Source: Acidimicrobiia bacterium
GTDB lineage: Bacteria > Actinomycetota > Acidimicrobiia > Acidimicrobiales > SKKL01
Assembly (NCBI GenBank): GCA_016649895.1
Contig: JAENWR010000018.1
Location: forward strand, 1-42,849
Direction of reading: 5' to 3'
DNA length: 42,849 bases
Part shown: one piece after another, positions 30,939 to 42,218 of the stretch
Numbering within the stretch: the stretch's first letter is position 1
Layout of the letters: every line of letters begins with the position of its first letter
Made by a program: the position numbers and the translations under genes
Notes under the pieces: generated by a model
The model's input: the letters and a program-made list of their open reading frames with translations, nothing else
Database searches by the model: none
What the model was told of the DNA's origin: nothing

Positions 30939-32735
30939 ATGAGTCTGACGAGCGAGCGTCCCACCGACGCCGCCACATCTGAGGTGCGCGACACGACCGA
31001 CAGCGGTCGGCGCCGCCGCGTCGCACGACTGATCCCGGCGCGCCTCCGCAACGCCGGCGGCATCGAGGACCAGGTCGACGCGCTCACCGCCGGCACCTTC
31101 GGCGGCGAGGTCGACCGACTAAGGCCGTTCAACCCCGCCATCCTCACCATCCGCTGGGGCGCAACCATCGCCTGTCTGGCGCTGGCGGCCCAGTCGTTCG
31201 TCGACCGCGACCTCGACGTCGTAGCGTGGACCTTCGCCGTGGTGTCCTACACGGCGTTCCGCACCATCAGCCCCATCCGGTACGTCGGCGACACGCGCAG
31301 CCTCCTGGCGGTCCTGGGCGAGGTGGGCCTCCTCACCCTCGCCGTCACCGGCACCGGCTACTGGTCGTCTCCGTTCGTGGTCAGCTTGGTGTCGGCGATC
31401 ATGGTGGCCGGCTTCGCCCGCGGCTTCGGGTTCGCGTTGCGCATCAGCGTGGTCGCGGTGCTGGCGGTCGCCATCCCCGACGCCGCGCGCGCCGAGTACG
31501 TATGGGAGATCGACGGGGCCGTCTCGCTCGAGCGCGCCGTCATCCTGCTCATGGTGTCGGTCATCGCCGGCTACGCCCGACGGATCTCGGGCGAAGCCGA
31601 TGCGCAGCACACCCTTGCGCTCGACCGGCTCGGCCGCCTCGCCGACGCCAACGCCCTCCTCTTCTCCCTGCACCGGGTGGCCCAGACGCTGCCGGCATCC
31701 CTCGATTTCGACGAGGTGCTCGACTCGACCGTTCAGCGCCTCCGGGGCCTGCTCGACTTCGACGCCGCGGCGGTGCTCATCGCCGACGACACCGACGGCA
31801 CCTGGCACGTCGCTCGCCGCGAGGGCCTCCGGCTGGGTGACCGCCTCAGCGAGTCGGAGCTGCCGGGGGTGCTCCGCACCGTGGCCGAACGCCGCGAGCT
31901 CGTCGTCCGCAACGAGCTGAGCAATGCCCACCCGGGCCTGGCCCCCTCGATGGGATCGGGGATCTACGCACCCCTCACCGCTCGCGGGGCGCTCATCGGC
32001 CTGGTGAGCCTCGAGCACAAGGACGAACGCCACTTCACCCAGCGTGACGTCGAGCTCATCAACGGCTTCGTCGAACCGGTCGCCCTTGCCATCGACAACG
32101 CTCGCTGGTTCATGCGGCTGCGCACCGTCGGCGCCGACGAGGAGCGCACCCGGATCGCCCGGGAGCTGCACGACCGCATCGGCCAGTCGCTCGCCTACCT
32201 GGCGTTCGAGCTCGACCGCATCGTGTCGGCCCAGGCGAGGGGAGCCGAGATCGGCCCGTCGCTCGACCAGCTGCGCGACGACGTCCGAGGCGTCATCGGC
32301 GAGGTGCGCGACACCCTGTACGACCTGCGCACCGACGTGTCCGACAACCAGGACCTGGCCGACACCCTGGATCAGTTCATCCAACGGGTGAAGGATCGCA
32401 CCGGCCTGGAGATCACGCTCTACGCCGATCGGGGACCACGCTTGCCGATCCTGCAGGAGCGCGAGATGTGGCGCATCGCCCAGGAGGCGCTCACCAACGT
32501 GGAGCGCCACGCCAAGGCCAGCCGGGTGCGCGTCCTGTGGCGCTGCAACGGCCAGGCGGCGGCCCTCGAGATCGCTGACGACGGCGCCGGCTTCCCGGTG
32601 GGCCGCTCCGGACGCCTCGATTCCTACGGGATCATGGGCATGAGGGAGCGTGCAGCGAGCATCGGGGCCACTCTCGACGTACTCTCAGAGCCGGGAAAGG
32701 GCACACGAGTGCGCTGCTACCTGGCCCCGACATGA
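30939..32735 (+). CDS. NarL-type sensor histidine kinase with GAF domain
   Basis: A 598-residue membrane kinase. After about 65 cytoplasmic residues there are about six membrane helices (roughly residues 70-215). A GAF domain (about 245-390, FDAAAVLIADDTDGTW to QRDVELINGFVEPVALAIDNAR) follows. The HisKA_3 dimerisation helix carries the phospho-accepting histidine in ERTRIARELHDRIGQSL (H411). The HATPase domain has EALTNVERHAKASRVRV (N-box), EIADDGAGFPVG and SYGIMGMRERAASIGATL. It phosphorylates the regulator encoded 19 bases downstream. The GAF domain suggests a small-molecule or redox input, but no ligand residues can be assigned. ATG start follows AGGATG-like sequence. Confidence 0.93.
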   Translation: MSLTSERPTDAATSEVRDTTDSGRRRRVARLIPARLRNAGGIEDQVDALTAGTFGGEVDRLRPFNPAILTIRWGATIACLALAAQSFVDRDLDVVAWTFAVVSYTAFRTISPIRYVGDTRSLLAVLGEVGLLTLAVTGTGYWSSPFVVSLVSAIMVAGFARGFGFALRISVVAVLAVAIPDAARAEYVWEIDGAVSLERAVILLMVSVIAGYARRISGEADAQHTLALDRLGRLADANALLFSLHRVAQTLPASLDFDEVLDSTVQRLRGLLDFDAAAVLIADDTDGTWHVARREGLRLGDRLSESELPGVLRTVAERRELVVRNELSNAHPGLAPSMGSGIYAPLTARGALIGLVSLEHKDERHFTQRDVELINGFVEPVALAIDNARWFMRLRTVGADEERTRIARELHDRIGQSLAYLAFELDRIVSAQARGAEIGPSLDQLRDDVRGVIGEVRDTLYDLRTDVSDNQDLADTLDQFIQRVKDRTGLEITLYADRGPRLPILQEREMWRIAQEALTNVERHAKASRVRVLWRCNGQAAALEIADDGAGFPVGRSGRLDSYGIMGMRERAASIGATLDVLSEPGKGTRVRCYLAPT

Positions 32736-32754
32736 CCACCAGATGGGAGATGGT

Positions 32755-33402
32755 GTGAGCATTCGACTCATGCTGGCCGATGACCACCGGATGCTGCGCG
32801 AGGGGCTGCGACGCTCGATGACCGAGCATGGCTTCGACGTGGTGGGCGAGGCGTCTGACGGCGCCGAGGCCGTCGACATGGCCGGGGAGCTGAAGCCCGA
32901 CGTGATCCTCATGGACGTCACCATGCCCGAGCTCGACGGGGTCGAGGCCACGCGGCTGGTGAAGGTCGCCAACCCGGCGATCCGCGTCATCATGCTCACC
33001 ATGCACGCCGACCAGGAGGTCCTGGCCGCCGCCATCCGATCCGGAGCCAGCGGCTACCTGGTGAAGGACTGCTCCACCGAGGAGATCGCCGATGCCATCC
33101 GCTCGGCGGTGTCGGGCGAGACCACCCTCTCCCCCGCGCTCGCGGCCTCGATGCTCAACGAGGTGCGCAAGCTCGACGCCCCCGACAAGCCCGAGGAGGA
33201 CCGTGTCGTCACGAAGCGTGAGGAAGAGGTCCTCCAGCTCATCGCCGACGGCTGCTCCACCCCCGAGGTGGCCGAGCGCCTCTACATCAGCCAGAAGACG
33301 GTGAAGAACCACCTGGCATCGATCTACCAGAAGCTCGATGCCCGTGACCGCACCCAGGCGGTGCTGCAGGCGGTGCGCATGGGCATCGTCAGCCTGGACT
33401 GA
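32755..33402 (+). CDS. LuxR/NarL-family response regulator
   Basis: A 215-residue two-domain regulator. Receiver: acidic pocket in RLMLADDHRMLREGLRR, phospho-acceptor aspartate in VILMDVTMPE (D54), threonine in MLTMHADQE, lysine in GYLVKDCS. Output: LuxR-type helix-turn-helix TKREEEVLQLIADGCSTPEVAERLYISQKTVKNHLASI. GTG at 32755 was preferred to ATG 32743 because a GGGAGATG ribosome site precedes it. The cognate kinase is immediately upstream, and the pilin genes follow 128 bases downstream on the same strand, so they are a plausible direct target (inference). Confidence 0.94.
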   Translation: MSIRLMLADDHRMLREGLRRSMTEHGFDVVGEASDGAEAVDMAGELKPDVILMDVTMPELDGVEATRLVKVANPAIRVIMLTMHADQEVLAAAIRSGASGYLVKDCSTEEIADAIRSAVSGETTLSPALAASMLNEVRKLDAPDKPEEDRVVTKREEEVLQLIADGCSTPEVAERLYISQKTVKNHLASIYQKLDARDRTQAVLQAVRMGIVSLD

Positions 33403-33416
33403 CCTCGGAGCGTGGC

Positions 33417-33439
33417 CGAAATAGGCCAAACGTCCTATT
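33417..33439. promoter_or_regulatory. Inverted repeat before the pilin genes
   Basis: AATAGG (33420-33425) and CCTATT (33434-33439) form a 6-base inverted repeat with 8 bases between. The left side is part of CGAAATAGGCC (33417-33427). Similar sequence (CGAAATTAGGTC on the minus strand, 42036-42047) occurs upstream of the Tad operon at a comparable distance. It could be a regulator site; only two examples support it. Confidence 0.3.
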
Positions 33440-33530
33440 CATCTTCTCGCCGAAACTGCCGATGGTTGTGGAGACAGAGAGTCGTGGTCCCCCACATGGG
33501 GTCCGGCACCAACCAAAGGGAGTCCACCCC

Positions 33531-33722
33531 ATGCTTACCCAGTTCAACGTCCTCACCGCTTGGATCAAGGCCCACATCGACAGCGACCGTGGCGCCTCCC
33601 TCGTGGAGTACGCCCTCCTCGTCGCCCTCATCGCCGTGGTCTGCATCGCCGCCATCAGCTTCCTCGGTGAGAGCGCTTCGACCCAGCTCTCGAAGGTCGG
33701 TTCCTCCATCGAAGGCGCCTGA
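33531..33722 (+). CDS. Flp/Tad type IVb pilin, copy 1
   Basis: A 63-residue prepilin. Leader of 21 residues ends DSDRG; the prepilin peptidase would cut after glycine, leaving ASLVEYALLVALIAVVCIAA with the glutamate at +5 and tyrosine at +6 required of Flp pilins. A single membrane helix and a short tail (GESASTQLSKVGSSIEGA) follow. The ATG at 33531 was chosen, preceded by AAAGGGAG-like sequence. A GC-rich hairpin sits between this gene and the second pilin. The minus-strand Tad genes nearby supply the assembly machinery. The small tail gives a minimal pilin. Confidence 0.93.
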   Translation: MLTQFNVLTAWIKAHIDSDRGASLVEYALLVALIAVVCIAAISFLGESASTQLSKVGSSIEGA

Positions 33723-33744
33723 GCCAGCACACGTACGCGAGTTC

Positions 33745-33778
33745 AAGGGCCGGGTCGGATACTTCCGGCCCGGCCCTT
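33745..33778 (+). terminator. Hairpin between the two pilin genes
   Basis: AAGGGCCGGG (33745-33754) pairs perfectly with 33769-33778 around a 14-base loop; three further loop pairs can form. Only three T's follow. Likely a partial terminator or an mRNA stabiliser that raises the output of pilin 1 over pilin 2. Confidence 0.6.
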
Positions 33779-33804
33779 TGCTCGTTCGGAGAGGAGACGC
33801 AGTC

Positions 33805-34029
33805 ATGAACGACGCAGCACCTCCGGTGTGCCTCACGGCGATCCACCCCTCGATGCCCAACGCGGCGGACAGCACCCTGGACAGCACCGACCGAGGTGCG
33901 TCGCTCGTCGAGTACGCGCTGCTCCTCGCTCTCATCGCGGTGGTCTGCGTGGGCGCGATGTCGTTCCTCGGTGGGACGACGGGCGACAGCCTCTCGACAT
34001 CGACGAGCAAGATGTTCGTCGCCGACTGA
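33805..34029 (+). CDS. Flp/Tad type IVb pilin-like protein, copy 2
   Basis: A 74-residue prepilin. Long leader of 31 residues (MNDAAPPVCLTAIHPSM then acidic/serine-rich, ending DRG), followed by ASLVEYALLLALIAVVCVGAM, again with E at +5 and Y at +6. Mature part is about 43 residues. Compared with copy 1 the hydrophobic core is nearly identical, while the leader and tail differ, suggesting duplication and divergence. Start ATG with GAGAGGAG about 8 bases upstream. It could be a minor pilin capping or initiating the fibre (inference). Ends before a strong terminator. Confidence 0.88.
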   Translation: MNDAAPPVCLTAIHPSMPNAADSTLDSTDRGASLVEYALLLALIAVVCVGAMSFLGGTTGDSLSTSTSKMFVAD

Positions 34030-34041
34030 GATCACGCACCA

Positions 34042-34079
34042 CGACAGCGGCCCGGAGCACCAGCTTCGGGCCGCTGTCG
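34042..34079. terminator. Strong terminator after pilin 2 (bidirectional candidate)
   Basis: CGACAGCGGCCCG (34042-34054) pairs perfectly with 34067-34079. The inner bases extend the stem by four more pairs, leaving an ACCA loop, so the stem is about 17 pairs. No U-tract follows on either strand. It sits in the 98-base gap between convergent genes, so it can end both the pilin transcript and the Tad operon. Confidence 0.75.
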
Positions 34080-34127: not shown

Positions 34128-35591
34128 CTACTCGTTCCGCCTGAAGATCGACCAACCGGTCGACCCGTCGTCGGCGGCGCGCTCCGGGTCGATCGGATCG
34201 AGCGGCGCGTCGGCCACCCACGCCTCCGAGGTCAGCAGCTGTTCCGACACCGGTGAGTCGGTCTGCCAGACGACGATGTCGATGTCGAAGTGGTCGAGCA
34301 CCTCGAGCACGCGACGGCCCTGGTGAAGATCGATCATGCCCTCGAGCACCCGCTCGGGGTACATGTCGAAGCGGTCGTCGAAGAAGACGTTCTGGATGGG
34401 CCCATACCGGTACTCGAGGTAGTTCCCAACCCGGTCGATGTAGGCCACCCGCTCGTCGCCGTGCGGGAGAACGCCTTCATCGTCCAGCCGGGCGATCTCG
34501 GCCATCGGGTAGCTCTCCAGCTCGAGGTGCGGACCGCTGGACAAGGAGAGGAGCAGCACGAGCATCCCTGCGACGGAGACGCCGAGCAAACCCTTGGCCA
34601 GCGGAGAGCGCTCGTCGGACCGTAAGCGCCCAAGGTTCGGTGCGGCAGCGGCCAGCAGTGGAGCAACTGCGATGGCGGCGATCGGAATGTTGCGTGCCCC
34701 GAGGAGCGCCGCCCCGATGAACGTCGCGGCAGGCACGACCAGCTCCCACCTGCCGACCCGCCGGGCAGCGAGGAACGCCAGCACCAGTTGGAGGAGGAAC
34801 AGTCGCGCTCCCCACCCGGCGAAGTCGGGAGAACGCCACTCGGTGACGGCCTGGAGCTGATCGGCCCGTCCGAGCAACGTGACGGGGAACGTGAGGATCG
34901 TGACGCTCACCGGCGACACGACGCCGCCGAAGACCGTGCCGACCGCCGTCAGTCCTGCGACCCGTGAGAGGCGCGCCACATCGCCCCGATCGATCAGACG
35001 GCCAACGAACAGGGTACCGACGAGGACGATACCGAGTGGGAACGAGCCGTGGCTGTTCACCCACACCCACATGAGCGGGACGATCGGCCACAGGGGGCCG
35101 CGGTCCGCCAGGACCCACAGACCGACGAAGCAGACGAGTCCGATCATGAGCGGCCGCTCGACCCATAGGATCGCACCTGTGCCGACGCTGAGCGCCGCTA
35201 TCGCCAGGCGCGGGATCAACGATCGTGCGGCCCGGGTCAGCCACCAGACGCCGACTGCGACCACGGACGCGAGCGCCATGTGCAGCAGCCGCGGACCAGC
35301 CAGTCCGAACCCGCGCTCGAGCACCGCGTACATCAACGAGGCGAGCCAGGACTGCACCGTCCACACCTCGCCAGCAGCGGTGAACGTGTACGGGTCGGTC
35401 GACGGGACCGACCCTTGATCGAGGATCAGGCGACCAGTGGCCAGGTGGGTGAAGAAGCTGTTGTCGGAGAGCTTGCCCGCGCCCACGAACGCACCGATGA
35501 GGGCGACGACCGATCCCAGTCCGACTCCGAGCGTCAACCGGTCGTGGAGGGTTTGTGGGCCCTCCGCCCCGCCCGCCATGGCCTCCACCAC
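34128..35591 (-). CDS. Polytopic membrane protein (GT-C-like), last gene of Tad operon
   Basis: A 487-residue protein with about ten membrane helices. The first outer loop DNSFFTHLATGRLILDQG then S-T-D-P-Y-T-F-T and W-x-x-Q-S-W-L is a pattern shared by many bacterial membrane proteins of glycosyltransferase-like layout (x-D-x-x-H-x-x-x-G-R-x-I-L). I know of no proven function. The acidic residues in the loop before helix 2 may form a donor site. A soluble domain of about 125 residues closes the protein and includes VAYIDRVGNYLEYRYG and VVWQTDSP. The gene starts GTG (or ATG at 35579) 3 bases after tadC, implying co-expression with the pilus. It could glycosylate pilins or other surface proteins, which is inference from location alone. 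Confidence 0.7.
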   Translation of the reverse strand: MVEAMAGGAEGPQTLHDRLTLGVGLGSVVALIGAFVGAGKLSDNSFFTHLATGRLILDQGSVPSTDPYTFTAAGEVWTVQSWLASLMYAVLERGFGLAGPRLLHMALASVVAVGVWWLTRAARSLIPRLAIAALSVGTGAILWVERPLMIGLVCFVGLWVLADRGPLWPIVPLMWVWVNSHGSFPLGIVLVGTLFVGRLIDRGDVARLSRVAGLTAVGTVFGGVVSPVSVTILTFPVTLLGRADQLQAVTEWRSPDFAGWGARLFLLQLVLAFLAARRVGRWELVVPAATFIGAALLGARNIPIAAIAVAPLLAAAAPNLGRLRSDERSPLAKGLLGVSVAGMLVLLLSLSSGPHLELESYPMAEIARLDDEGVLPHGDERVAYIDRVGNYLEYRYGPIQNVFFDDRFDMYPERVLEGMIDLHQGRRVLEVLDHFDIDIVVWQTDSPVSEQLLTSEAWVADAPLDPIDPERAADDGSTGWSIFRRNE

Positions 35592-35594
35592 GGG

Positions 35595-36530
35595 TCAGCT
35601 GCTGAAGTTGTCGCGGATGTTGATGATGGCGGGTCCGATGACGACGACGAACAACGCGGGGAAGATGCAAAAGACCATCGGCACCATCATCTTGACCGGT
35701 GCCTTCATGGCCCGCTCCTGCGCAAGCTGGCGGCGCTTGATGCGCATCTCGTCGGCCTGCGACCGCAGCACCCGGCCGATGGAGACGCCGAAGGTGTCGG
35801 CTTGGAGGATGGCCATGACGAACGAGCGCAGCTCGGGCACGTCGGTCCGCTGCTCCATGGCCCGCATGGCATCGGCGCGAGTCGATCCGGCCCTTGTCTC
35901 ACCCAGCATCCGACCGAACTCCTCGGACAGCGGCCCCGGAACCGACTGCACCACCCGGTCGATGGCCTGCTCGAACCCGAGCCCCGCCTCGACCGAGATG
36001 ACCAGCAGGTCCATGACGTCGGGCAGCTGGATCCGCAGCCGGTACTGACGCTCCTCGACATTGCGGTTGAGGATGGCATCGGGCCCGACGATGAGGGCGA
36101 AGGCGACCATTCCGAAGATGGCGTGGTTGAGCATGCCCTCCATGCCGAGCGGAGCGACGCCGTAGTGGACGATGAACCAGACGGGCACGAGGGCCACGGT
36201 GATGACCCGGATGGCCAGGAAGCGGTCGGCGGCATCGGCACTGGCGTTGCCGGCTCGCACGAGCTTGAGCTTCACCTGGTCGACGTAGCCGACCGGGGTG
36301 AAGCGACGGCCGAGCCCGGTGAGGCCGGCGAGCACGGGCTTGAAGGCGCGGTCGGCGAGGGGGACGAGCAGCTCCTGGTCGCGGAGGTTCTCGACCTCGT
36401 AGCCGTCGAGCTGCCGCAACGACTCGCGCACCACGGCCTTGTCCTCGGCCTGCCAGAGGAAGAAGAAGATGACGAGCCCGATGGCTAGGCCGACGCCGCC
36501 GACGAGCAGTTCGAGCGGGAGTTCAGACAT
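35595..36530 (-). CDS. tadC: Tad pilus inner-membrane platform protein TadC
   Basis: A 311-residue protein of the type II secretion F family. N-terminal helix (LLVGGVGLAIGLVIFFFLW), a cytoplasmic stretch, central helices around residues 105-150, the T2SSF domain (LPDVMDLLVISVEAGLGFEQAIDRVVQ with E-x-G) and a C-terminal helix. With TadB it makes the platform that the TadA ATPase rotates to build the pilus. Starts ATG, overlapping the tadB end by 8 bases. Length normal for TadC. Confidence 0.94.
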   Translation of the reverse strand: MSELPLELLVGGVGLAIGLVIFFFLWQAEDKAVVRESLRQLDGYEVENLRDQELLVPLADRAFKPVLAGLTGLGRRFTPVGYVDQVKLKLVRAGNASADAADRFLAIRVITVALVPVWFIVHYGVAPLGMEGMLNHAIFGMVAFALIVGPDAILNRNVEERQYRLRIQLPDVMDLLVISVEAGLGFEQAIDRVVQSVPGPLSEEFGRMLGETRAGSTRADAMRAMEQRTDVPELRSFVMAILQADTFGVSIGRVLRSQADEMRIKRRQLAQERAMKAPVKMMVPMVFCIFPALFVVVIGPAIINIRDNFSS

Positions 36531-38448
36531 CGACCTCGATCACCTTCTTCATCCAGTAGAAACCGACTGCGGCGAGGATGATGGAGCCCGCCAGCAGGAT
36601 GTTGCCGAGCGTGGTGTCGAACAGCACGGCGATGTACTCGGGGTTGAGCATCCACATGGCCACGCCGAGCCCGATGGGCAACAGCCCGAGCACGATGGCG
36701 CTGATCTTGCCCTCGGCGATGAGGCCTTGGATATCGCGGCGGAGGCGCTCGCGCTGGATCATGGTGTCGGCCACCGTCATGAGGAGCTCGCCGAGGTTGC
36801 CGCCAACCTCGCGCTGGATGCGGATGGCCATGACCGCCCACGCAAAGTCGTCGCTCTGCATGCGGTCGGCCGAGGCTTCCATCGACTCCTCGAGCGGACG
36901 GCCGAGGCGCGACTCGGTGACGATCCGCCGCAGCTCTTGGCCCATCGGCTCGGAGACCTCGCGTGAGATCGCTTCGACGCCCTGCATCAACGAGTAGCCA
37001 GCACGGAGGGTGCCAGAGAGCATGCTGAGCGTGTCGGGCAGTTGGGAGACGAACTTCTTGCGCCGTCGACCGGCCAGGAAGTTCACGACCGCTGGGGGGA
37101 GGATCGCGATGAGGGCACCCACCACGAGGGTGGTCACCAGGTTGCCGCCGCTGACCACGAACATCAGTACGAACAGGAGCACCACGCCGCAGGCGTAGAA
37201 GAAGAGCGCCTCGGCGGCGCGCAGCGGGAGGTTGGCCCGCTCGAGCATCCCCTCGATCTTCGTCAGCACGCCCTGGCGCTCGGCGAAGCCCTCGGTGATG
37301 GTGACGGCACGTTGGATGAACGCCGTCTTGGCCATGCCGGAGCCGTCGTCGTCGTCGAGCGGTGAGCGGGTGCCCGTGTCGGTGTAGGCCTCGAGCACCG
37401 AGTTCAGCGAGCCGCCATCGGGGACCATCAGCGAGCCGATGGCGTAGACCGCGAGGCCAGCGGCGAGCACCGCAAGGACGAGACCGATGGTGAACCCGTT
37501 GTCGCGGAGGAAACCGACGCCTTCGAGTGGCGTGACCTCGACCGGCCGCAGTGAGCTGGCCCCCGTGGCCACACCACCGGCCACGTAGGACACCGAGGTC
37601 GACTGGCCGCCAACCTCGAGGGTGAGGTCGACCGGTCCGGTGGCGTTCGCGGAGCTGAAGGTGAGGAGGTACTGGCTGTTGAGCTCGGTGACGATGTCAC
37701 CCATGGCGGCACCGATGGCCGACGGGTTCTCCTGGCCCCGGTACGAACCACCCGCGGCGTCGATGACGCTGCGCAGCTCGTTCGGGTTGATGCCGCGACC
37801 CTGGAGGCCGAGGGCGTAGACGGCCGCTTCGGCCGAGACGACCGCTCCACGGGCCCGGCTGCCGGGGATCGTCGAGCTGTCGTTGGGCCCGCCGGCGATG
37901 ACGATGATGTTGCGCTGCTGGCCCTCGGCCTCTTGGAGGAGCCCAGCGGCGATGTGGAGGCCGTTCCAGAGGGCACTTCCACCGGTGGGGGCAAGGCCGT
38001 CGACAGCCGAGAGGAGGCGCTCGGTGTTGTTCGTGAGGCGCTGCACCACCCGCCCGGTGCCGCCAAACGACACGATCCCGACCTCTTGTCCTTCAGGACG
38101 GTTCCGGATGTACTCGGCCAGTGCCTCGCGGGTCTGGACGAGGGCTCCCTCGGCATCCATGGCGGTCGAGGTGTCGACCGCGAGGATGGTGGCGATGCGG
38201 CTGCCGGGGATGGGGGCGACGACGTCGACGTCGACCTCGGTGCCGTTCTCGACGATGGTGGCCGACTCGAGGTCGGACTGGTCGCCGGTGTAGTCGACGA
38301 TGAGGGTGACCGACGAGGCATCACGACTGTTGACCGAACGGACCTGCAGCCGCGTGAGAGCGTCGCCGTCCTGGGCCGATGCCGACGGGACGACGACCGC
38401 GAGCGCAGCCATCAGGACGGCGCCGAGCACCGCCACGAGTCTCTTCAC
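36523..38448 (-). CDS. tadB: TadB with N-terminal secreted von Willebrand factor A domain (fusion)
   Basis: A 641-residue fusion. Residues 1-25 are a signal peptide ending PSASA before QD. Residues about 85-265 form a vWA domain (ILAVDTSTAMDAEG, GIVSFGGTGRVVQ, PTGGSALWNGL, IIVIAGGPNDSS). A helix at about 321-341 crosses the membrane. Then two helices near 412-456 and the T2SSF domain (about 465-590, QLPDTLSMLSGTLRAGYSLMQGVEAI, with a C-terminal pair) complete TadB. Plain TadB is about 300 residues, so the first 310 are extra. The metal site looks incomplete: D92-x-S94-x-A96 instead of D-x-S-x-S, and A-G-G where the third aspartate should be. It might bind a partner outside the cell without metal. 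ATG shares ATGA with tadA. Confidence 0.92.
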   Translation of the reverse strand: MKRLVAVLGAVLMAALAVVVPSASAQDGDALTRLQVRSVNSRDASSVTLIVDYTGDQSDLESATIVENGTEVDVDVVAPIPGSRIATILAVDTSTAMDAEGALVQTREALAEYIRNRPEGQEVGIVSFGGTGRVVQRLTNNTERLLSAVDGLAPTGGSALWNGLHIAAGLLQEAEGQQRNIIVIAGGPNDSSTIPGSRARGAVVSAEAAVYALGLQGRGINPNELRSVIDAAGGSYRGQENPSAIGAAMGDIVTELNSQYLLTFSSANATGPVDLTLEVGGQSTSVSYVAGGVATGASSLRPVEVTPLEGVGFLRDNGFTIGLVLAVLAAGLAVYAIGSLMVPDGGSLNSVLEAYTDTGTRSPLDDDDGSGMAKTAFIQRAVTITEGFAERQGVLTKIEGMLERANLPLRAAEALFFYACGVVLLFVLMFVVSGGNLVTTLVVGALIAILPPAVVNFLAGRRRKKFVSQLPDTLSMLSGTLRAGYSLMQGVEAISREVSEPMGQELRRIVTESRLGRPLEESMEASADRMQSDDFAWAVMAIRIQREVGGNLGELLMTVADTMIQRERLRRDIQGLIAEGKISAIVLGLLPIGLGVAMWMLNPEYIAVLFDTTLGNILLAGSIILAAVGFYWMKKVIEVDV

Positions 38449-39806
38449 CGACCGACCGCCTTCTGGCCCATCGGCTCCGGCTGGAAGACCTCGGCCCCGA
38501 GGCGGATGCCCAGGTCGGCCAGCTTCTCGGCGAACTTGGGCCGCACACCGGTGGCCTTGAGGTGGCCGCGGAAGCGGCCCTTGTCATCGACACCCATGCT
38601 GTAGTCGAACATGAAGATGTCCTGCAGGGTGATGACGTCGCCCTCCATGCCCTGCACCTCGGTGATGTGGGTGATGCGACGAGTGCCGTCGCGGAGACGG
38701 CTGAGGTGGACGACGAGGTCGAGGGCCGACGCCATCTGCTCACGGATCGCTCGGATGGGCAGATCGAACCCTGCCATCAGCGTCATGGTCTCGATGCGCG
38801 ACAGCGTGTCACGGGGGCTGTTCGAGTGGATCGTGGTGATCGACCCGTCGTGGCCGGTGTTCATGGCCTGGAGCATGTCGAGGGCCTCACCGGCGCGGCA
38901 CTCGCCGACCACGATGCGGTCGGGGCGCATCCGGAGGCAGTTCTTCACGAGGTCGCGGATGGTGACCTGGCCGCGACCCTCGATGTTCGGTGGGCGAGCC
39001 TCGAGCGACAGGACGTGGTCCTGGTGCATCTGGAGCTCCTTGGCGTCCTCCACCGTGACGATGCGCTCGTCGGACGGGATGAACGACGACAGCACGTTGA
39101 GGGTGGTGGTCTTGCCGGTGCCGGTGCCGCCCGAGACGATGATGTTGAGCCGTCCGACCACGCAGGCCTGGAGGAACCGGGCCGACTGGGCGTTGAGGGT
39201 GCCGAAGCGGATGAGGTCGTCGATCTGCAGCGGATCGGTGGAGAACTTGCGGATGGTGAGGAACGGGCCACCGATGGCGAGGGGGTGGATGACGGCGTTG
39301 ACGCGGGAGCCGTCGGGGAGGCGGGCGTCGACCATCGGAGTCGACTCGTCGATGCGGCGCCCCACCTGGCCCACGATCTTGTCGATGATGCGACGCAGGT
39401 GCGTCTCGTCGACGAACGAGGCGGTGTCCTTCTCGATGCGGCCCGACCGCTCGACGTAGACACTGTCGGGGCCGTTCACCATGATCTCGGTGACGGCCTC
39501 CTCCTTCAGCAGCCGATCGATGGGGCCATAGCCCAAGATGTCGTCGGAGACGTCCTGGATGAGCTGGGCCTTGTCGGCCGCGGTGAGGGGCGTGCGCTCC
39601 TGGGCCAGCGCCGACTGCAGCTGCTCGTGCACGCGACGACGGAGATCGTCCTCGCTGAGCCGTTTGTCGTAGAGGATCGGACCAAGCTCGTCGATGAGGT
39701 GGTGGTGGATCCGCTGGCGCAGCTCGTCGAGAACTGGGTCGCGGCGACTCGGCAGCCCGGTGGCGGCCGGTCCCTGCTGTTCGTGGAGCCTCTTGTACAA
39801 CGACAT
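38445..39806 (-). CDS. tadA: Tad/Flp pilus assembly ATPase CpaF/TadA
   Basis: A 453-residue secretion ATPase that powers pilus assembly. N-terminal three-helix region (residues 1-90), then ILGYGPIDRLL, the N1 domain, and the RecA-like core with P-loop GGTGTGKT (226-233), Asp-box region ERIVTVEDAKELQMHQDHVL, Walker B region PDRIVVGECRAGEALDML, and the His box GHDGSITTIHSNSPRDTLSRIETM. All motifs complete. It follows tadZ by 53 bases and is coupled to tadB by ATGA. Confidence 0.97.
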   Translation of the reverse strand: MSLYKRLHEQQGPAATGLPSRRDPVLDELRQRIHHHLIDELGPILYDKRLSEDDLRRRVHEQLQSALAQERTPLTAADKAQLIQDVSDDILGYGPIDRLLKEEAVTEIMVNGPDSVYVERSGRIEKDTASFVDETHLRRIIDKIVGQVGRRIDESTPMVDARLPDGSRVNAVIHPLAIGGPFLTIRKFSTDPLQIDDLIRFGTLNAQSARFLQACVVGRLNIIVSGGTGTGKTTTLNVLSSFIPSDERIVTVEDAKELQMHQDHVLSLEARPPNIEGRGQVTIRDLVKNCLRMRPDRIVVGECRAGEALDMLQAMNTGHDGSITTIHSNSPRDTLSRIETMTLMAGFDLPIRAIREQMASALDLVVHLSRLRDGTRRITHITEVQGMEGDVITLQDIFMFDYSMGVDDKGRFRGHLKATGVRPKFAEKLADLGIRLGAEVFQPEPMGQKAVGR

Positions 39807-39859: not shown

Positions 39860-41080
39860 TCAGCGTCGGCGGGAGCGCTTGTCGGAGGCGAGAAACTGCC
39901 CGGCGAGGTCCTCGATGGCGCGGCTGACACCCGACTTGGGCGAGGCCATCACGACGGGAGTGCCCTTGTTGACCGACTGCGGGACGGCGATGTCGCTCGG
40001 GATGAGCGACTCTGCCTTGATCCCGAGAGTCTTCTCGACCTCTCCGACCTCGAGCTTGACCTTGGAGTTGGCCCGGTTGAGGACCAAGTGCAGCTTCTCC
40101 ATCGGCGTGTTGAGCAGCTTGAGGGTCTGGAGGCCGATCTTGACGTTCTTGATGTTGGGGATGTCCATGCCGGCGACGAGGAGGACGTCGTCGCTCGTCT
40201 CGATGAGACCGAGCACCACCTCGTTGAAGTAGGCCGGCGTGTCGATGATGATGTGGCCGGCGAACGTGCGCAGGAGGTCGATGATGCGGATCATGTCCTC
40301 GGCACCGATCTGATCGGCGAAGGCCGGCTCGAGCGGCGCAGGCAGCACGTAGAGGCCCGACCCCTCGTGCACAGCGAGGAGGCTCTGGAGGAGCGAACCG
40401 TCGAGCTTCTGGATCGAACCGACGGCGTCGACGATGGTGTGCTGCGGTGCCAGCTTGAGCATGACGGCGACGTCGCCGAACTGGAGGTTGGCGTCGACGA
40501 GCACCACCGGGCGATCGCTGCGCTGGGCGAGGGTGACCGCCACGTTGACGGCGAGGACCGACTTGCCCGCGCCGCCCTTGGTGGAGAACACCGTCATGAC
40601 CCGGCCGAGATCGCCCGCCGGCAGACCCGGCTCGGATGATGCCATCGAACCCCCGGGCACGAACAGCGAGTCGGCCACGCGCTGCACCGCGGCCACGAGT
40701 TGCCCGGTGTCGACCGGCGCGCCGAGCACGTCGCGGACACCAGCCCGAAGCGCCTGCTGCAGCAGGGCCGTGGACAGCTCCTCGCTGAGCAGGACCGCAC
40801 CGACCTCGCGGTGGGCACGGACCAGCTCCTCAGCGGCCGCGAGCTCCGAGCCGTAGGCACACGACGGCCCGAGGACCGCCACCACGGGATGGCCAAGGAG
40901 ACGAGCGCGCAGCTCACCGACGCTGCCGAAGGTCGTCGCGCTCTCGCCGAGTTGCATGGCGAGTCGGTTGCGCGTCGACTGATCGGCATCGACGACGGCC
41001 ACGGCGATACCGGCCGGGATCATCGGAACACCCCCATGACGGGTCGGATCGTGTGCGCCCGGATCGGGAGCAAAGGACAT
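39860..41080 (-). CDS. cpaE: Pilus assembly ATPase/localisation protein CpaE (TadZ)
   Basis: A 406-residue protein. The N-terminal about 130 residues look like an atypical receiver domain (GIAVAVVDADQSTRNRLAMQL and GAVLLSEELSTALLQQALRAGVRDVL) with no clear phospho-aspartate. The C-terminal ParA/MinD-like ATPase has the deviant Walker A FSTKGGAGKSVLAVN, VVLVDANLQFGDVAVML, and IIIDTPAYFNEVVL. TadZ/CpaE places the pilus assembly machine at the pole or a membrane patch. Start ATG at 41080 with AAGGAG 4 bases away, 1 base after the cpaB stop. An inner ATG at 41023 is an alternative. Confidence 0.94.
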   Translation of the reverse strand: MSFAPDPGAHDPTRHGGVPMIPAGIAVAVVDADQSTRNRLAMQLGESATTFGSVGELRARLLGHPVVAVLGPSCAYGSELAAAEELVRAHREVGAVLLSEELSTALLQQALRAGVRDVLGAPVDTGQLVAAVQRVADSLFVPGGSMASSEPGLPAGDLGRVMTVFSTKGGAGKSVLAVNVAVTLAQRSDRPVVLVDANLQFGDVAVMLKLAPQHTIVDAVGSIQKLDGSLLQSLLAVHEGSGLYVLPAPLEPAFADQIGAEDMIRIIDLLRTFAGHIIIDTPAYFNEVVLGLIETSDDVLLVAGMDIPNIKNVKIGLQTLKLLNTPMEKLHLVLNRANSKVKLEVGEVEKTLGIKAESLIPSDIAVPQSVNKGTPVVMASPKSGVSRAIEDLAGQFLASDKRSRRR

Positions 41081-41081
41081 G

Positions 41082-41915
41082 CTACTCCTTGCCTGCGGGC
41101 CCGAACGGGGTCAGACGGACGCCATCCTCACCCGGCAGGATCTCGTCGAGGGGAAGCGGCGGCATGGGCACGGCCTCGAAGTCGGGCGGCACGAGCGAGA
41201 GGTAGATGCTGCCGGGATCGACCGAGGCGATGCGCTGGGCGGCGTCGGGGGGCACGATGAAGGTGATGGTGCCGGCGCCTGCGGCGACAGCTTCGGGATC
41301 AACCGTCTCACCGGGCTGCGGCACGAAGTTGCGCCCGATGGCCAGGATGGGCACCTGCTGGTAGAGGTAGCGGGCCGGCTGGGTGTAGATGGCCTGGTCC
41401 TCGTTGGGACCGGCACCTTCGGGCGGAGCTTCGCCCTCGGCCAGCTCAGCGGGAGCGCTGGTGATCATGATGTTCACCTCGTCGCCCGGCACCAGGAGGC
41501 CGCCGACGCCACGCACCTGGTCGACCGAGATGGTCATGGTGACGTTGCCGTCGGTGAGGCGCTCGGAGAAGGTGATGAGCGCCGAGGCCGGGTCGACGAA
41601 CATGCCCTCGACCAGCACCTGGTTGGCCGACAGGTCGTTCAGTGCGACCCTGCCCTCGATGGTCTCGATGTTGGCGGTGGCGTTGGCCGGCAGGAACTCA
41701 CGAGGGATCTCGGAGCGGACGATCAGCTCGCTGCTGGACGCCTGCTCGCCCGGGGTGCCCTTGGGGATGTCGAGCGCCACCTTGTAGACGGGGACTCGCT
41801 CGGCCTGCTCGTTGGCCCGATCTTCGATCCCCTTCACGTAGTTGAACAGCGCGAAGGCGGCGATGGCACCGACTGCGATCGCTGCGATGAGGATCAACGT
41901 TCTGCGAGAGCTCAC
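41082..41915 (-). CDS. cpaB: Flp pilus assembly protein CpaB (RcpC), SAF domain
   Basis: A 277-residue protein. A single N-terminal helix (TLILIAAIAVGAIAAFALFNYV) anchors it, and the outer part has the SAF-type domain with VPVYKVALDIPKGT, LVRSEIPREFLP and LVEGMFVDP, followed by the RcpC region with ISVDQVRGVGGLLVPGDEVNIM. A glutamate- and proline-rich insert (AELAEGEAPPEGAGPNED) splits that region. In other bacteria CpaB helps the pilus pass the outer envelope; in one-membrane cells it may link to the cell wall. GTG start with GAGG 5-6 bases upstream. First gene of the minus-strand Tad operon. Confidence 0.93.
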   Translation of the reverse strand: MSSRRTLILIAAIAVGAIAAFALFNYVKGIEDRANEQAERVPVYKVALDIPKGTPGEQASSSELIVRSEIPREFLPANATANIETIEGRVALNDLSANQVLVEGMFVDPASALITFSERLTDGNVTMTISVDQVRGVGGLLVPGDEVNIMITSAPAELAEGEAPPEGAGPNEDQAIYTQPARYLYQQVPILAIGRNFVPQPGETVDPEAVAAGAGTITFIVPPDAAQRIASVDPGSIYLSLVPPDFEAVPMPPLPLDEILPGEDGVRLTPFGPAGKE

Positions 41916-42218
41916 TTCGACCTCGTTCGTCCTGGATTCGTATGGGTTGGGGGTGACACGGGTGGGCGTGGACGGCCACGGGCCGTGACATGCCGGACGG
42001 ACAGTGCACCGCCGCTGCCTCTCCTTCGGCCGATCGACCTAATTTCGTGAGGAGTTTCCGGCAGAGATCTGACATCGACACGGGCGGCTGCCGTAGAGCG
42101 CGGTTGTCGGGCCTGGCGGACGAGGCGGTCGGGCGCGACTGCGGGGCAGCGCCGGAAGGCCGGCATCTGCCCCGCAGTCGTCTATCGCGCTGTTCGCCCG
42201 AGACGGCGAGTGTTCGCC
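41916..42218. promoter_or_regulatory. Upstream region of the Tad operon
   Basis: A 303-base gap between rpsA and cpaB, holding no gene. From the rpsA side it has a strong hairpin (42136-42180). Nearer cpaB, the minus-strand sequence CGAAATTAGGTC (42036-42047) resembles the motif before the pilins, about 120 bases from the start codon. The A/T-rich hexamers around 42041-42046 are the most promoter-like bases, but no -35/-10 pair can be fixed by eye. Confidence 0.4.
42136..42180 (-). terminator. Terminator after rpsA
   Basis: A 14-base perfect stem (42136-42149 with 42167-42180). Five further pairs (42151-42155 with 42160-42164) around an AAGG loop lie above a small bulge. There is no T-run on the 3' side, as is frequent in high-GC actinobacteria. 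It sits 39 bases beyond the rpsA stop and isolates rpsA from the Tad operon. Confidence 0.7.

Follow-up and report, generated by a model that had tools for sequence, protein, structure and literature searches.

A putative composite promoter element upstream of Flp pilin genes

The 42,849-nt contig JAENWR010000018.1 of an Acidimicrobiia bacterium (the whole contig is called the window here) carries genes for a sensor histidine kinase and a NarL/FixJ-type response regulator in front of two Flp-type pilin genes, flp1 and flp2 (Table 1). Between the regulator gene and flp1, an 18-bp palindrome followed by a sigma-28/WhiG-like −10 sequence was identified, and this composite element recurs upstream of flp genes in independent loci. 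Judged from the sequences, the regulator probably binds just upstream of the −35 region and activates the sigma-28-type promoters of pilin genes, and not the promoter of the motor operon. The synteny, the conservation and spacing of the operator, its co-occurrence with the regulator and the presence of WhiG and RsiG are read directly from the compared genomes.

An inverted repeat at 33417–33439 had been put forward as a candidate regulator site in the first-pass annotation of the window. The repeat, AATAGG-N8-CCTATT at 33420–33439, falls on the conserved operator. By itself it was ruled out as evidence, since it lies within the range of chance (749 nt contained 21 inverted repeats whose arms have at least 6 nt); it exceeds chance only through the comparison with relatives. 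When the DNA downstream of the regulator was read across loci, the repeat was found to belong to a longer element, which consists of the 18-bp palindrome ATRGGYC-N4-GRCCYAT, a spacer of 18–20 nt and the sequence GCCGAT(A/G).

For the comparison, 59 genomes were used, namely that of the window (G000; 3.59 Mb in 171 contigs, the window being contig G000:C94) and 58 relatives, mostly one per family. Genomes, DNA stretches or loci, and contigs are labelled G, L and C. The regulator was taken as present at a match of at least 50% identity and 200 bits, which was reached in 26 of the 59 genomes; the best match in the other 33 had 49% identity. In total, 27 stretches were mapped, the window and 26 from 25 relatives (two from G033). 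With a cut-off of at most three mismatches in all and a spacing of 18–20 nt, the composite was found upstream of 22 of the 41 Flp genes in these 27 loci and in 6 of at most 20,000 random windows, those near an Flp gene having been skipped and not redrawn. The consensus was derived from the same loci, which counts against this first comparison, and the element was therefore tested on other loci.

The independent set was taken from a scan of genome contigs and comprised the best 80 of 400 regulator loci, whose record titles were mostly Acidimicrobiales, Acidimicrobiia, Microthrixaceae or actinobacteria, with a few metagenome-assembled genome (MAG) titles otherwise. Ten of the 80 loci were dropped for having less than 400 nt after the regulator. 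A same-strand Flp gene within 1.5 kb downstream was present in 54 of the remaining 70. The other 16 showed no same-strand pilin by motif within this distance; several of them do have an Flp gene by tblastn, which is inverted in L219, L239, L240 and L245. Six of the 80 loci were identical to earlier ones, five of them within the 54, leaving 49 independent Flp genes, and no near-identical pair was present among the 80. The composite was detected at 31 of these 49 regulator-proximal genes and in 20 of 20,000 random windows. With up to four mismatches, the numbers were 38 of 49 and 89 of 20,000. When the spacing was left free between 0 and 45 nt, the best GCCGAT was located 18–20 nt from the palindrome in 31 of the 43 independent Flp regions whose palindrome has at most two mismatches, and at exactly 19 nt in 26.

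Where the pilin gene is inverted (L047, L219, L239, L240 and L245), the element was found on the strand of the pilin. In G005, two flp copies 110 kb away from the regulator each have a perfect palindrome, and the four flp copies of L056 are each preceded by one of their own. Since the element accompanies inverted or remote flp genes, the site goes, by its position, with the pilin gene and is not tied to where the regulator gene ends. TadE/TadG minor pilins were not seen in the window. In the same genome, a remote operon on C73 (L034:7325) that encodes TadE (PF07811), Tad (PF13400) and Flp-like proteins is headed by a perfect palindrome with GTCGAT. The description of the layout as a compact signal-to-pilus unit had to be given up, since the same element heads this remote TadE-TadG-Flp operon and a small Cys-rich gene on C14.

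A composite of its own was not found at flp2 in the window. The gap between flp1 and flp2 contains a strong hairpin, which was also obtained for the four relatives folded (L035, L036, L037 and L163), with differing stem letters. The second pilin is presumably made by read-through past the hairpin, at a lower level, and the balance between the two pilins is likely set by the hairpin.

Presumed promoter architecture and candidate sigma factors

The available passages of PMC8325347 give TAAA as −35 and GCCGATAA as −10 of the WhiG/flagellar promoter class. The window −10, GCCGATGG, matches the latter at 6 of 8 letters, and most composites have GCCGAT or one change from it. A TAAA 15 nt before the −10 was not found in the window (Table 1); among the loci examined, TAAA-N15 occurs only in L164, L204, L207, L214 and L215. 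The first base of the presumed −35 coincides with the last one of the palindrome or adjoins it. L164 combines the palindrome with TAAA-N15-GCCGATAC (11 of 12 letters). The other four loci, which are IMCC26207-like, have TAAA-N15-GTCGATAC without a composite that passes the cut-off. The absence of the composite from these four TAAA loci suggests that a weak −35 is offset by the operator, in the manner of a class II activator. Among 118 Flp upstream regions, the composite was found in 60, 16 of which also have TAAA-N15-GCCGATAA with at most three mismatches, and the TAAA type alone in 8. At this tolerance, TAAA-N15-GCCGATAA occurs in 442 of 20,000 random windows.

The window's genome encodes a WhiG-type sigma factor (G000:C108; match to 6pfj_A, 4e-89) and a homolog of RsiG (6pfj_T, E 7.5e-14). 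Regarding the E(X)3S(X)2R(X)3Q(X)3D c-di-GMP motif helices of the latter, EESVSYLRRIIQVRLD is an exact match, and the second helix, ETDVSAARRTLHTRLD, has a change of Q to H (by eye). A strong WhiG match (more than 240 bits) was found in 21 of the 26 regulator-positive genomes, and 15 of these 21 are without a flagellin match. RsiG was found in 42 of all 59 genomes and in 23 of the 26 with the regulator.

Upstream of flagellin, where promoters were read as a sigma-28 control, TCAA-N16-GCCGAAGA (three mismatches) was found in G047 and TCAA-N16-GCCGTAGA (four mismatches) in G043. In G000, G001, G002 and G027, no sigma-28-type match of at most three mismatches was found upstream of flagellin, and the region of G006 ends at the contig end. 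Palindromes were seen about 167 nt away upstream of flagellin (L157, which is G000:C97, L158 and L159), with one mismatch in G000 and two in G002; in G001, a two-mismatch palindrome was recognized by eye at a similar place. These palindromes are without GCCGAT at the usual spacing. From such sites it appears that the regulator may also touch flagellin.

Linkage of the regulator to Tad pilus genes in relatives

The association of the two-component pair with tad genes, on which the first-pass annotation had staked its proposal, was found again in relatives. The 27 regulator stretches contain an Flp gene in 22, tad motor genes in 20 and the kinase in 24 cases; a kinase homolog is present in 23 of the 26 stretches from relatives. 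The recurring order is coaE-kinase-regulator-flp with a tad block and rpsA nearby, subject to rearrangements. Flp pilins (PF04964) were identified in 25 of the 26 genomes with the regulator vs. 3 of the 33 without. Two genomes drawn later (G189 and G335) have the same gene order and site, and the locus is carried by the complete genome of Aquihabitans sp. G128 (Iamiaceae). Among the matches listed in the named collection, the closest regulator is that of an Acidimicrobiales MAG with 97% identity (L167; the same sequence as L035 of G003). Among 296 genomes of the phylum, regulator matches of at least 55% identity are confined to the order, and the seven listed outside of it have 43–47%.

In L050, L051, L053, L055 and L056, a more divergent tad motor cluster was seen directly upstream of the kinase gene and co-directional with kinase-regulator-flp. 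L051 and L053 have a second, closer tad cluster in addition.

Model search across genomes

A sequence-only model (R1) of 22 sites from 14 genomes, none of them of the window's family, was run against the full set of 59 genomes. Matches at E ≤ 1e-3 were found in 19 of the 26 regulator-positive genomes, 14 of which had given training sites, and in 0 of the 33 others. The 12 positive genomes without training sites had matches in 5 cases (Fisher 6e-4), and at E ≤ 0.02 in 9 cases vs. 4 of the 33. Among the matches in the window's genome, those on C73 and C14 score ahead of the window site, which comes third (E 0.0017). R1 matches were also located upstream of further flp genes in G045 and G057, of a pilin gene in G026 (longer spacing) and of a TadE-like gene in G012, the last two genes being recognized by eye. 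Matches within long open frames with a high GC content at third codon positions (L131, L133, L134, L135, L138, L140 and L145) could be coding chance; of these, only L138 was used, for its TadE-like gene.

The site on C14 (G000:C14:25170–25221) lies upstream of a conserved gene for a small CxxC-rich protein, and an R1 match is found there in all four family members (L067, L073 and L074 in the others). The divergent neighbour of this gene is purB-like by eye in G000 and G001. In L144 and L146 (G019:C7), operator-like palindromes are followed by GCGATA and a common AATACATAAGCACATAG stretch, with no clear gene downstream; G019 keeps the regulator without an adjoining tad locus.

Candidate targets and elements not supported

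For the promoter of the motor operon (41916–42060), the best candidate was a three-mismatch palindrome at 42025–42042, with no GCCGAT at the proper spacing. Palindromes of at most three mismatches were found in 3 of 14 CpaB upstream regions, at differing distances (three mismatches in the window and L036, two in L040), vs. 265 of 3000 random stretches. The motor operon is not supported as a co-target, a conserved site being missing across these 14 regions, and the regulated part looks like the pilins and not the motor.

Autoregulation of the kinase and regulator genes was rejected, since no operator of at most three mismatches was found upstream of the kinase in the window (best: four). A composite-like site was seen upstream of a second FliA-like sigma factor gene in G030 (L132; G030:C35:14054–14119). 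This second sigma factor was not retained as a general target: the upstream regions were read in G030 and the window's genome, and the site was found in the former only, with none directly upstream of the copy in the latter (L066). A known RNA element of the flp leader, such as a riboswitch, was discarded, as no Rfam family reached the gathering score; elsewhere in the stretch, only weak and implausible Rfam matches were obtained.

Gene content of the window

A Pfam search was used for the domain assignment of the window proteins, and it confirmed that a GAF histidine kinase and a NarL-type regulator precede two pilin genes (Table 1). Five membrane segments were predicted for kinase residues 66–211 by a hydropathy script, followed by a single GAF domain at residues 255–386 and the histidine box of HisKA_3 with His411. 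The solved relatives nearest to the kinase by sequence include VraS and DesK, and those nearest to the regulator VraR, NarL and DevR. D9, D10, D54 and K104 of the regulator are invariant in an alignment of 30 sequences, and much of the helix-turn-helix (HTH) domain is nearly invariant. A REC and GerE protein thus adjoins a HisKA_3/HATPase_c kinase with the phospho-acceptor residues present, as in a NarL/FixJ-type system with a HisKA_3 kinase.

A converging Tad motor operon had also been described in the first-pass annotation. This was borne out for TadC to CpaB on the minus strand; the nearest converging gene (34128–35591) is without a Pfam match and is not assigned to the motor. With an Flp pilin, CpaF/TadA, TadB and TadC (one T2SSE and two T2SSF domains), the window contains a Tad/Flp locus. 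The VWA-TadB fusion was matched near full length in several relatives (e.g., L038, L039 and L045), and in some others (e.g., L049) the TadB part alone was matched. The VWA part is possibly a force- or ligand-sensing part of the pilus platform. At about 9.6–28 kb of the window, several large glycosyltransferase- or polysaccharide-export-membrane-like proteins were seen near uvrA-, uvrB- and uvrC-like genes (translations, by eye).

Table 1. Coordinates of the two-component, pilin and motor genes and of the associated DNA elements in the window.
Feature	Position	Strand	Basis or remark
Sensor histidine kinase	30939..32735	+	Pfam GAF, HisKA_3, HATPase_c
NarL/FixJ-type response regulator	32755..33402	+	Pfam Response_reg (REC; D54/K104) and GerE HTH
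Operator palindrome ATAGGCC-AAAC-GTCCTAT	33421..33438	.	One mismatch to ATRGGYC-N4-GRCCYAT; conserved before flp genes of independent loci
Presumed −35, weak (TTCA followed by N16, or TCAT by N15)	33438..33442	+	Abuts operator; L164 has canonical TAAA there
Sigma-28/WhiG-like −10 GCCGATGG	33458..33465	+	19 nt past operator; consensus TAAA / GCCGATAA (passages of PMC8325347)
flp1, Flp-type pilin, 63 aa	33531..33722	+	Pfam Flp_Fap (PF04964) above cut-off
Intergenic hairpin flp1-flp2, strong, 15-nt arms	33745..33778	+	Folding; also in four relatives folded
flp2, second Flp-like pilin, 74 aa	33805..34029	+	Flp_Fap below cut-off (26.2 vs. 32.2 bits); no own composite
Hairpin between convergent genes, presumed shared terminator	34042..34079	.	
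Protein of unknown family, membrane-like by eye	34128..35591	-	No Pfam match; homologs in many regulator loci, often beside tad genes
TadC (T2SSF domain)	35595..36530	-	Pfam
VWA domain fused to TadB (T2SSF)	36523..38448	-	Pfam; relatives' loci
CpaF/TadA ATPase (T2SSE)	38445..39806	-	Pfam
CpaE/TadZ-like ATPase	39860..41080	-	Pfam CbiA, ParA, AAA_31
CpaB/RcpC	41082..41915	-	Pfam

Proposed mechanism and alternative explanations

The assignment of this regulator to the palindrome, its role as an activator, the choice of sigma factor at the −10 and the signal of the kinase are matters of inference. In the proposed mechanism, the kinase would phosphorylate the NarL-type regulator, a dimer of which would bind the palindrome and activate the sigma-28/WhiG-type promoter. 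With a start assumed about seven bases after the −10, the dimer is predicted near −41.5, the palindrome reaching up to the first base of the −35 or to its neighbour; this would be a class II site making up for the poor −35. The flp start would lie 5–8 nt past the GCCGATNN element. The same composite would control other pilin genes anywhere, such as extra flp copies, the TadE-TadG-Flp operon on C73 and the remote flp genes of G005, and the motor operon would be expressed separately. The matching sigma factor in the window's genome is probably WhiG, held by RsiG with cyclic di-GMP (c-di-GMP). With WhiG held in check, pilin synthesis would need both the kinase signal and the release of WhiG.

Several observations weigh against this mechanism. 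At the cut-off, 18 of the 49 independent regulator-proximal Flp genes are without the composite, 11 of 49 are without it at up to four mismatches, and L040 (G008) has none within the cut-off. Neither the composite nor TAAA-N15-GCCGATAA was found in 50 of the 118 Flp upstream regions, many of which belong to second pilins. Most composites have TCAG, CCAG or a similar sequence as their presumed −35. In the R1 search, the nine matches at E ≤ 0.02 in untrained genomes include those of G008, G019 and G027, which do not precede a recognized pilin, and the four genomes of the window's family (f1) represent one family and were scored with laxer filters, the others under stricter ones. The regulator occurs without an flp or tad gene in the stretch in G007, G019, G043 and G147, and none of the Flp genes read elsewhere in the first three of these genomes has the composite; one Flp gene of G007 has a one-mismatch palindrome about 210 nt upstream, without GCCGAT. 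The regulator may thus have other targets. The presence of WhiG and RsiG is not specific, as both are also frequent among genomes that lack the regulator. The closed genome G005 keeps the sites, with a best WhiG match of 204.8 bits and no RsiG at E ≤ 1e-6.

The last point would fit the reading of GCCGAT by the second FliA-like sigma factor (about 200 bits) or by another sigma factor in place of WhiG, as would the composite-like site before the sigma gene of G030. This alternative is considered the less likely one. The second sigma gene in the window's genome has no composite directly upstream, and strong WhiG matches accompany the regulator in most genomes, largely without flagellin. The −10 also fits the WhiG consensus in the passages of PMC8325347, but this consensus is common to the whole flagellar sigma class.

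The operator abuts the −35 or overlaps it by one base, and a regulator that covers this region could act as a repressor, or its sign could be switched by phosphorylation. A low probability is assigned to this explanation. One would expect a repressor to cover a strong −35, but loci with the operator usually have a weak one, and the four IMCC26207-like loci with TAAA lack the composite. A centre near −41.5 is the position of a class II activator, which fits the value predicted from the assumed start site.

It appears less probable still that the palindrome is the site of another regulator, the two-component pair being merely a neighbour inherited with the coaE-rpsA locus. The persistence of the regulator in four stretches without flp or tad genes and the missing operator upstream of the window kinase would agree with this. 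On the other side, the R1 matches track the regulator, the one candidate binder whose distribution was compared with them, though in part over training genomes, and a palindrome of such length beside a NarL-type gene fits this family.

A function of the repeat in RNA, as a leader hairpin or riboswitch, is hardly credible: the arms could pair as a 7-bp stem with a 4-nt loop (one mismatch in the window), but there is no Rfam family at that place, both arms keep their letters, and the nearly fixed distance to GCCGAT would place the repeat upstream of the transcript.

Starting from activation of the pilin promoters by the NarL-type regulator, a wider model can be offered tentatively, and with more doubt than the activation itself. 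In much of the Acidimicrobiales, Tad pilin synthesis could be governed by an AND-gate promoter. One input would be WhiG, freed or sequestered by c-di-GMP through RsiG; the other would be a licence given to this promoter by a dedicated membrane kinase through its NarL-type regulator, which would act from a class II site. The distributed regulon would comprise the pilins and minor pilins, joined in one relative by a FliA-like sigma factor, without the assembly motor. In the window's family, the regulator could perhaps also act on flagellin, coupling attachment to swimming.

The operator yields a concrete predicted regulon and a way to find pilin genes remote from the motor. It also offers a testable role for the WhiG-RsiG pair of the order, for which we know of no established role in these bacteria. 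Two separate signalling systems may jointly decide when a surface fibre is made in a mostly uncultured order.

Comparison with known systems

Among the papers listed, no paper on Tad regulation in Acidimicrobiales and none joining two-component and WhiG control was found by title or shown abstract, subscription papers being largely outside the scope of this search. Both halves have precedents, namely Tad pili under two-component control and other type IV pili under a proposed control by WhiG; since no paper joining both was found, their combination is regarded as a new variation on these.

In Pseudomonas aeruginosa, the response regulator of PprA-PprB induces the flp pilin and the tad locus (PMC10418997, available passages). 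The pair of the window resembles this system in being tied to flp/tad, a likeness that is claimed for function only. PprB also induces cupE and bapABCD along with the tad locus, and a sigma-28-type promoter is not mentioned in these passages; unlike there, no site was found at the motor operon of the window.

The ECA0785-ECA0786 pair of Pectobacterium likewise adjoins flp/tad and has a positive effect on flp/tad transcription, according to the passages of PMC3767616 at hand. It consists of an OmpR-domain regulator and a BaeS-type kinase, whereas those of the window are of the NarL and HisKA_3 types, and the same passages describe no operator.

WhiG has been proposed to drive type IV pili in Rubrobacter, and an RsiG with twin motifs has been reported in three of four Acidimicrobiales species (PMC8325347, in part). 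WhiG-type promoters (TAAA / GCCGATAA) before pilus genes and the anti-sigma factor RsiG are shared with the present system. The genes described there are of the pil type, and the passages mention neither Tad/Flp nor an operator of a companion response regulator.

In E. coli, CRP activates the sigma-28 promoter of aer from a position at −49.5 (abstract of PMC2859248). The system described here would similarly place a transcription factor at a sigma-28-type promoter; in contrast to CRP, it is a NarL-type regulator with a predicted centre of about −41.5.

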